In this document: positions 3,401-6,400 of the stretch, piece after piece
How the letters are laid out: every line of letters starts with the position of its first letter
Numbering within the stretch: position 1 is the first letter of the stretch
Origin: Alviniconcha marisindica
Lineage: Eukaryota; Mollusca; Gastropoda; Provannidae
Direction of reading: 5' to 3'
Assembly (NCBI GenBank): GCA_018857735.1
Contig: JABMCL010000295.1
Span: 304,501-368,500 of the forward strand
Length of the DNA stretch: 64,000 nucleotides
Translations under genes and position numbers: made by a program
Notes under the pieces: generated by a model
The model's input: the letters and a program-made list of their open reading frames with translations, nothing else
The model's database searches: none
What the model was told of the DNA's origin: nothing

Positions 3401-6400
3401 GACACAGACTGTCGAGTGACATCAGAGTCAGACGAATGTCGGGAAGTGTACATCACCTGCAAGTGCTTCCACCTCTCCACCTACGCCATCATAGTCGACC
3501 TGGAGGATGGGACGGTGAGTGCCTGTCCACCTCATTGCAGCAGTCATGTTCCGGTCCATAGCCAGGATATCATTTGCATGAACCAGGCATTGTGCTGATG
3601 TTCACAGAAGAAAATGGTGTATGGGATACTGCTGGTGGTGGCATTGGTGATTAATGATGATGGGGAAGAGGAGGAGGAGAATAACACTGATGGTGATAAA
3701 GGGTCATGGATACTGCATAATTATGTATTACAACTACACAGATTTTGATGATGCGGAGGATGGGGGTGGAAGACAAAAACTGAGGCAAAACAATGGTAAT
3801 AACACGAATGATGGAGGAGGAAAACTGAGGCAAAACAGTGGTAATAACACTAATGATGGAGGAGGAACACTGAGGCAAAACAGTGGTAATAACGCTAACG
3901 ATGGAGGAGGAAAACTGAGGCAAAACGATGTTACTAACACTAATGATGGAGGAGGATGCAGATGCCTTGTGCCTCTGTCTCAAGTTCATATGTCCTGTCT
4001 TGAATGGATGTACTGAGAGTTCACCTGTGGAGCAGTCACTGACCATCATGCTGAACTTTTCGGCAGTGCTTGGGCCCATGAATAATGCTAAATGGGTATT
4101 ATCAAGTAATCAGGTGTTCGTTTTGACTTTTATTTTGTTGTTTGCAGGTTGGTTTGCATAATTCTTGCCATTTACCAGAAAGCATTTTTTTTTTTTTTTT
4201 TTTTTCAGTTGCCGAAGGCAGCAGTGGTGCAGCTGGAAGCCTTCATGTATGTGTTGGTTGGATTGTCGCTGTCACTCCTTGTGATAGCGTTCTTCATCCT
4301 CATCTCCTACAAAGCTCTACAGAGCAACTGGAACAGCATCCACATCAACCTCATCTTTGTCATTGTCATCTATGAGCTGGCCTTTGCTGTTGGCATCAAC
4401 AGAACCAGACCAGAGGTGAGACATTCATTGTTGGCCTTTGCTGTTGGCATCAACAGAACCAGACCAGAGGTGAGACATTCATTGTTGGCCTTTGCTGTTG
4501 GCATCAACAGAACCAGACCAGAGGTGAGACATTCATTGTTGGCCTTTGCTGTTGGCATCAACAGAACCAGACCAGAGGTGAGACATTCATTGTTGGCCTT
4601 TGCTGTTGGCATCAACAGAACCAGACCAGAGGTGAGACATTCATTGTTGGCCTTTGCTGTTGGCATCAACAGAACCAGACCAGAGGTGAGACATTCATTG
4701 TTGGCCTTTGCTGTTGGCATCAACAGAACCAGACCAGAGGTGAGACATTCATTGTTGGCCTTTGCTGTTGGCATCAACAGAACCAGACCAGAGGTGAGAC
4801 ATTCATTGTTGGCCTTTGCTGTTGGCATCAACAGAACCAGACCAGAGGTGAGACATTCATTGTTGGCCTTTGCTGTTGGCATCAACAGAACCAGACCAGA
4901 GGTGAGACATTCATTGTTGGCCTTTGCTGTTGGCATCAACAGAACCAGACCAGAGGTGAGACATTCATTGTTGGCCTTTGCTGTTGGCATCAACAGAACC
5001 AGACCAGAGGTGAGACATTCATTGTTGGCCTTTGCTGTTGGCATCAACAGAACCAGACCAGAGGTGAGACATTCATTGTTGGCCTTTGCTGTTGGCATCA
5101 ACAGAACCAGACCAGAGGTGAGACATTCATTGTTGGCACAGGCACACACACCACACCAGCACACACACACAACACACTCACACAACACACACACAACACA
5201 CACACACACACACACACACACACACACACACACACACACACACACCACACACAACACACACACACACACACACACACCACACACACACACACCACACACA
5301 CACACACACACCACACACACACACACACACACACACACACACACACACACACACACACACAAGCACTTGCACATGTTCGCGTACACACACACACATGCAC
5401 ACATGCACATACACTTGTACAAACACACACACACACACACACAAACAACACACACATGTGCACACACACACACAAACACACACATATGCACACACACACA
5501 CACACACACACACACAACACACACACACACACACACACACACACACACACACAACAACACAACACAACACAACACAACACAACACAACACAACACAACAC
5601 AACACACATGCGCACATTCATGCACACCTGCATGCATGCACACACATGTACCCACGCATGCACACATACACTCACACACACACACACACAGAGTCTATGC
5701 AGTATTTCTGCGTGACCATACATCATGTCAGCCTGTTTCTCTGTTACAGCTGTTCTGCCGTCTGGTGGCCATATCCCTGCACTATTTTTACATGGCGGCT
5801 TTTGCCTGGCTGTACGTTGAGGTGCTGCACATCTACCGCATGCTGACAGAGAAACAAACCATCAACTATGGCACCATGAAGTTCTACTACCTCCTTGGAT
5901 ACGGTGAGCATGTCATCTTGTCATCTTGTGGCAGTATCTTGGAAATTGGTTCATTCACCTGTGTTAAGTTGCAGGCCTCTTTTGTATTTTGGTTTCAGTG
6001 GAAGTACTCTGTACCTGCCTTATGCAGGGTGTAACTTTTTGGACCTAAGAAGGATGGTTTGTGTGTTGAGGCCAGCATGGAGCATTTAATTCACCCTGAA
6101 GTCAGTGTACAGCTGTCTGAATGGCAGCAGACAGTGCAACAGCATGCAGTCATGTACATGCAGGAAATAGCTGCACTTGCAAAATCTCACCCAACTCAGG
6201 GTGAACCTTTGAATTTTAGCAAAGGAATGGAATTATCATTTCATTTTCCAGACCATTTTAGCAGAGGAATGGAAACATCATCATCATCATTCTTTCATTT
6301 TCCAGACCGTTTAGCAAAGGAACGGGAACGTCATTATCATTTCATTTTCCAGACCAACAGCACTTTGCAGTCACTTTCTGACATTAGTGTGTTTGATGCT

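Follow-up and report, generated by a model that had tools for sequence, protein, structure and literature searches.

Fourteen identical copies of an exon end and its 5' splice site in a CELSR/flamingo adhesion GPCR gene

The window analysed here, a stretch of 64,000 nucleotides, carries on its plus strand a gene that, judged by its domains and its relatives, is a CELSR/flamingo adhesion GPCR, nearest to those of caenogastropod snails, the group to which the animal itself probably belongs. When exons 1-12 were joined, Pfam returned a GAIN domain (PF16489, 1.9e-11) followed by a 7tm_2 domain (PF00002, 5e-47), as in CELSR/flamingo proteins, and both domains are likewise on the Pfam lists of four full-length relatives. 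These are the CELSR2-like proteins of Littorina saxatilis (P0006), Babylonia areolata (P0007) and Pomacea canaliculata (P0009), and a hypothetical protein of Nucella lapillus (P0008). The four gastropod proteins match the window exon by exon and in the same order, with 39-100% identity (mostly >60%), from position ~437 as far as 13445, with three of them continuing to 15986. The domains and the colinear match bear out the assignment to CELSR that was made in the initial annotation of this DNA, and the colinear match also its placing of exon 6, exon 7 and the intron between them. Exon numbers are the window's own, with exon 0 denoting the exon that ends at the left edge of the window; the cadherin, EGF and laminin-G ectodomain would lie upstream of the window start. 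Solved adhesion GPCRs, among them the latrophilins ADGRL2 and ADGRL3, align across the exon 6/7 junction, and the general layout of the family would place this junction in extracellular loop 1, immediately ahead of TM3. The coordinates of the features are collected in Table 1.

Table 1. Features of the CELSR gene in the window, with positions counted from the first letter of the window.
Feature	Position	Strand	Basis or remark
Older array of the exon 0 end, five copies	1..240	+	Spacing 59/47/47/59; GT donors after 99, 146, 193 and 239, lost after 40
Diverged copy of the exon 4 end and donor	3007..3099	+	Copy donor after 3060; 69/92 identical
CELSR exon 6, extent as in relatives	4209..4415	+	207 nt, phase 0/0; first donor 4415|4416
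14 identical 54-bp units	4378..5133	+	Tandem Repeats Finder and direct count
14 identical donors GAG|GTGAGA	4416..5118	+	Count; U1 pairing -9.7 kcal/mol
TGGC, common to the right flank and the array start	5134..5137	+	Presumed microhomology of the founding duplication
CA-rich tract directly past the last donor	5143..5690	+	
CELSR exon 7	5750..5903	+	Acceptor common to all 14 donors
Diverged copy of the exon 11 end and donor	9314..9374	+	Copy donor after 9348; 46/56 identical
Second diverged copy of the exon 11 end and donor	9400..9456	+	Copy donor after 9436; 44/55 identical
Diverged copy of the exon 13 end and donor	11915..11990	+	Copy donor after 11952; 56/73 identical

At the end of exon 6, Tandem Repeats Finder reported an array at 4378-5137 with a period of 54, 14.1 copies, 100% matches and 0 indels, and by direct count 14 exact units of 54 bp were found (756 bp), followed by TGGCACAGG. 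The array is thus a minisatellite of head-to-tail units within the usual ~10-100 bp, and each unit consists of the last 38 nt of exon 6 and the first 16 nt of intron 6. The unit spans a real exon-intron junction, the position of which is fixed by six spliced and three apparently unspliced relatives. The initial annotation had described 14 perfect 54-bp copies of the exon 6 end with its 5' splice site, and this description was borne out; its 35 repeated exon bases are to be corrected to 38 (4378-4415), and the position 4209 that it gave for the array start is the start of exon 6, the repeat proper beginning at 4378. GAGGTGAGA occurs 14 times in the array by direct count, so that every copy has an AG|GT, and the donor is identical in 14/14 units, with the G of GT at 4416+54k (k = 0-13; 4416, 4470 ... 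5118). As the 14 donors share the same letters they share the same U1 pairing (-9.7 kcal/mol), which ranked third strongest among the 14 exon donors scored. The first 16 kb contain 1241 GT sites; 20 of them match this strength, and 14 of the 20 should belong to the array itself. The array at the exon 6 end with its 14 identical donors is real, and the observation is confirmed; for the repeat itself, chance need not be considered. On the minus strand (4370-5617) the array is open in one frame too, with repeats of NNECLTSGLVLLMPTAKA, a by-product of the repetition. The whole window gave no matches in Rfam or tRNA scans.

The exon 6/7 junction was crossed without insertion in all six CELSR-like spliced proteins that span it (P0001, P0002 and P0006-P0009), including the four gastropod proteins, none of which has the repeat unit at the junction; P0003, which does not span it, and the distant P0004 and P0005 (<30% identity) were not counted. 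Additionally, a query of exon 6 with three units returned three proteins (P0010-P0012), which were taken to be apparently unspliced genomic readings. In all three the exon ends at PE and a valine codon follows, as expected of a GT donor, and the second unit is absent. In P0010 (91% identical) the intron reads VRLIHCG, which, going by the protein letters, is compatible with a ATTCATTGT-GG stretch like that of the window. An extra unit was therefore found in 0/9 relatives covering the junction, which makes the expansion specific to this lineage or to this allele; a selected length-variable receptor would be expected to keep its units in relatives.

Exactly TGGC is common to the start of the array (4378) and its right flank (5134), which agrees with duplication between TGGC sites spaced 54 bp and suggests an origin of the array by slippage or microhomology. 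The first tandem pair would have been made by a slip or by microhomology-mediated duplication between these sites, and slippage or unequal exchange may then have lifted the pair to 14 units. A hairpin was also considered as the driver, as the unit contains CTGTTG-GCAT-CAACAG, and was rejected, its fold being not clearly beyond shuffles (z -0.39 as DNA, -1.20 as RNA). The zero differences in 756 bp put the age of the array below ~0.4-4 million years if 1e-8 to 1e-9 changes per site per year and independent evolution of the copies are assumed, a limit that homogenisation or assembly polishing would loosen. The perfect identity of all units, together with the single unit in relatives, would also agree with an assembly error, the true array being shorter or a single unit. 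However, arrays of every age occur elsewhere in the gene, a length of 756 bp is modest compared with long reads, and from short reads such a repeat would sooner be collapsed than expanded, which makes an artefact a very doubtful explanation.

Exon 6 is one of several exons of this gene with copies of their ends. We compared each exon end (50 nt with 25 nt of intron) with its own downstream intron by Smith-Waterman alignment, using dinucleotide shuffles and a threshold of z 4.5. Copies were found past 5/17 CELSR donors, at exons 0, 4, 6, 11 and 13 (z 17.8, 14.8, 30.2, 7.4 and 8.3), and none past the donors of a NAPE-PLD-like gene elsewhere in the window (0/3). In this comparison the exon 13 match covered exon letters only (-46 to -13), and a longer alignment takes it through the donor. 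Some borders used, those of exons 14, 16 and 17 and of the NAPE-PLD-like gene, deviate by a few bases, which is unlikely to affect queries of 75 nt. Exon 0, the end of which makes up the 47-bp array at the left edge, was identified with the Littorina and Nucella proteins (2/4 relatives), which match 46-99 with 94% identity over 18 residues (...LISQQYRDFVQ), followed by GTAATA; the true first donor of this exon is outside the window. The identities of the diverged copies in Table 1 count aligned bases, gaps excluded. The diverged copies belonging to exons 4, 11 and 13 have all retained the GT (4/4) and pair with U1 at -8.3 to -10.4 kcal/mol; at exon 0 the GT is present in 4/5 copies. Selection on the copied donors is not claimed, the copies being 75-82% identical overall and GT not clearly better kept than the rest.

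The first in-frame stop past the first donor was met after 2, 25 and 105 nt at exons 4, 11 and 13, respectively, and the copy donors, at 141 nt (exon 4), 122 and 210 nt (exon 11) and 134 nt (exon 13), all lie beyond it. At exon 0, a stop was met in 6/6 tested in-phase extensions between copies. Exon-end copies at several CELSR donors of one gene are what is new here, and the gene has apparently accepted such copies repeatedly, by keeping the first donor. The frequency of donor-side copies matched the intronic background (5/17 vs 24/73 windows, p = 1), so nothing draws duplications to donors. That duplications are drawn to splice sites was likewise unsupported, as 3/7 arrays lay no more than 50 bp from an exon end where random placement predicts 1.4 (p 0.16). 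Three minisatellites come close to CELSR acceptors: 6378-6496 (24-bp units) stops 4 bp short of exon 8, 7704-7941 (34-bp units) 18 bp short of exon 10, and 10541-11536 (35-bp units) 14 bp short of exon 13.

At the acceptors, copies that hold the acceptor and reach 15 nt or more into its exon were found for 0/17 in CELSR and 1/3 in the NAPE-PLD-like gene. For CELSR, donors (5/17) and acceptors (0/17) differed with a one-sided Fisher p of 0.022, and with the second gene included (5/20 vs 1/20) the p value was 0.09; the difference is slight and was drawn post hoc, as the limit of 15 nt was chosen with the hits already known. One acceptor copy fell below the cut-off (exon 8, 5 nt of exon, z 6.0), and two remained below the z threshold (exon 13, 14 nt, z 3.2; exon 15, 6 nt, z 4.1), each reached by 1% of shuffles. 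At the plain threshold the acceptor side gave 1/17, below the intronic background of 31/66 windows (p 0.002), a post hoc comparison in which background windows inside one array are non-independent. The donor-acceptor asymmetry is suggestive of a rule by which the first donor and the first acceptor made are the ones used.

Counter to the CELSR pattern, a degenerate upstream copy of the acceptor and 50 nt of the exon near 42077 was found at 41888-41961, with a z of 6.4. It belongs to the presumably NAPE-PLD-like gene, whose exon at 39401-40003 has metallo-beta-lactamase domains (Pfam). Elsewhere in the window, two similar small-GTPase 3' exons lie ~5 kb apart on the minus strand (48455-48898 and 53462-53911; Pfam Ras); they are likely tandem paralogues and presumably Rho. 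At 27562-28224 there are about two near-identical tandem copies of 317 bp (99%).

Returning to exon 6, we found that its reading frame is stop-free through all 14 units, each of which reads VRHSLLAFAVGINRTRPE, that is 18 residues with one NRT sequon. The frame is uninterrupted over 4209-5749, so the rest of intron 6 is also open. Three points of the initial annotation are confirmed by the direct count and by the frame check through all units, namely 14 equivalent in-phase donors without a stop, a ceiling of 234 extra residues (13 extra units of 18 residues), and one NRT sequon per repeat. Full retention of intron 6 would shift the frame of exon 7, since the intron is 1334 nt long (2 mod 3). 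Among exons 1-13 only the frame of exon 6 runs on in this way, the other 12 reaching a stop 2-129 nt past the donor; the uninterrupted frame results from the repetition of one open unit and from the CA tract. For hypothetical units of 40-70 nt, the chance of being both in phase and stop-free was 2379/14688 (16%) at the 12 other donors and 397/1224 (32%) at the exon 6 donor. With an expectation of 16-32% by chance, the coding compatibility of the units is not evidence of selection, and their in-phase openness is weak evidence of function. An AlphaFold2 fold of the extended protein, in which the repeat was modelled as strand-rich and solenoid-like with a mean pLDDT of 75.6, was discarded, because a control from a non-coding frame of the same array scored higher (mean pLDDT 91.2, nearly all strand) and because AlphaFold2 is reported to give such confident models for perfect repeats (PMC11795689).

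Based on the sequence, we propose that a young minisatellite lies across the exon 6 donor, that the first donor is predicted to account for nearly all splicing to exon 7, and that the other 13 copies would be removed with the intron; we put the probability of this reading at about 65%. Splicing would commit to the first donor made, defining the normal exon. The unused copies would decay there as part of the intron, apparently the course already taken by the older sets. If later donors were used at a low level, the receptors would stay in frame and gain 18, 36 ... 234 residues, by prediction within extracellular loop 1. The relatives without an extra unit speak for the first donor, as do the older sets: since stops precede every copy donor at exons 4, 11 and 13, and end the extensions at exon 0, those copies could persist only if an upstream donor is mainly used, unless the gene is broken.

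Against first-donor use stand two features at the far end of the array. In predicted folds, accessibility was 0.20-0.25 for donors 1-13 and 0.34 for donor 14, which would thus be slightly more accessible and is the least paired of the series, and the CA tract begins 25 nt past donor 14. Both would favour use of the donor nearest the acceptor (5117|5118), by which 234 residues would be added to extracellular loop 1. According to Eperon et al. in 1993, two equal strong donors both bound by U1 reportedly favour the one nearer the acceptor, and CA repeats are said by Hui et al. in 2003 to be able to activate a donor through hnRNP L. However, such use would lengthen the exon to 909 nt and place a large insert immediately ahead of TM3 in a conserved receptor, and the same rule would make the older copy sets lethal to the reading frame, so that last-donor use is quite unlikely.

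Alternatively, many or all donors may be used, so that in-frame isoforms of CELSR would carry 0-13 additional glycosylated units of 18 residues, and for this the stop-free frame with its identical in-phase donors and their nearly equal predicted accessibility can be cited. The gene would then hold a genetic length dial, with up to 14 receptors made from one CELSR gene and reset by changes in repeat number. The variable part would be the first extracellular loop, the gene being one whose introns have repeatedly received copies of its exon ends, and the dial would be a natural multi-step assay of how the spliceosome chooses among identical donors. However, equal use would leave only 1/14 of the transcripts normal, and we regard this reading as unlikely. 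The initial annotation had likewise suggested later-donor use and a length-variable receptor; the donors, the phase and the ceiling stand, but the use itself is opposed by the 9/9 relatives without an extra unit, by the 16-32% expected by chance for in-phase openness, and by the older sets, whose copies would bring stops.

Choice among identical donors is usually studied in two-site minigenes. The array is a natural case with 14 sites, in phase and evenly spaced, accompanied by four older copy sets in the same gene, and for it the possible rules (first made, nearest acceptor, random) predict sharply different, countable RNA. If the first donor wins, as we favour, the locus would show growth of an intron by copying of exon ends at little cost. 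If it does not, the animal would make a length-variable CELSR receptor.

Among the matches listed in a search of the open-licence literature, no title described an array of identical in-phase donors. The gastropod CELSR genes of P0006-P0009 agree with the present gene in exons and domains, and differ in having the repeat unit at the junction in 0/4. In ABCA7, the length of a VNTR in intron 18 goes with skipping of exon 19 (PMC6660495). The likeness is that of an intronic minisatellite whose length can accompany altered splicing of adjoining exons, whereas the effect in ABCA7 is exon skipping and copied donors are not mentioned in the excerpt of that source; here the donors themselves are copied. 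Human segmentally duplicated genes have variable internal tandem repeats at exon-intron boundaries, with 27 intron modifications and 18 cases in which both exon and intron were found in transcripts (De Grassi and Ciccarelli 2009, PMC2812944). As here, the minisatellite unit straddles the exon-intron boundary and is lineage-specific. However, the human genes arose by recent duplication in primates, their repeats are supported by RNA and the units average 30 bp x 4, whereas the present array has 14 letter-identical donors at one snail-like CELSR exon, with older copies at other exons.

Tandem duplication across exon-intron boundaries is also a known route of intron gain (PMC3443670; potato RdRp, PMC4974935), and with CCAGAG|GTGAGA in every unit, one or more whole 54-nt units might be spliced out here as new introns. 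This appears exceedingly improbable, as 54 nt is very short for an intron and the acceptor context is weak, with 8-13 pyrimidines of 20 (8 at AGAG|GTG) compared to 10-20 at the gene's own acceptors. The potato RdRp duplication (PMC4974935) resembles the present array in that duplication over a boundary copied working splice signals, with an AG|GT in each copy. In potato the acceptor side was copied once, with RNA support, whereas in this CELSR gene the donor side was copied 14 times.
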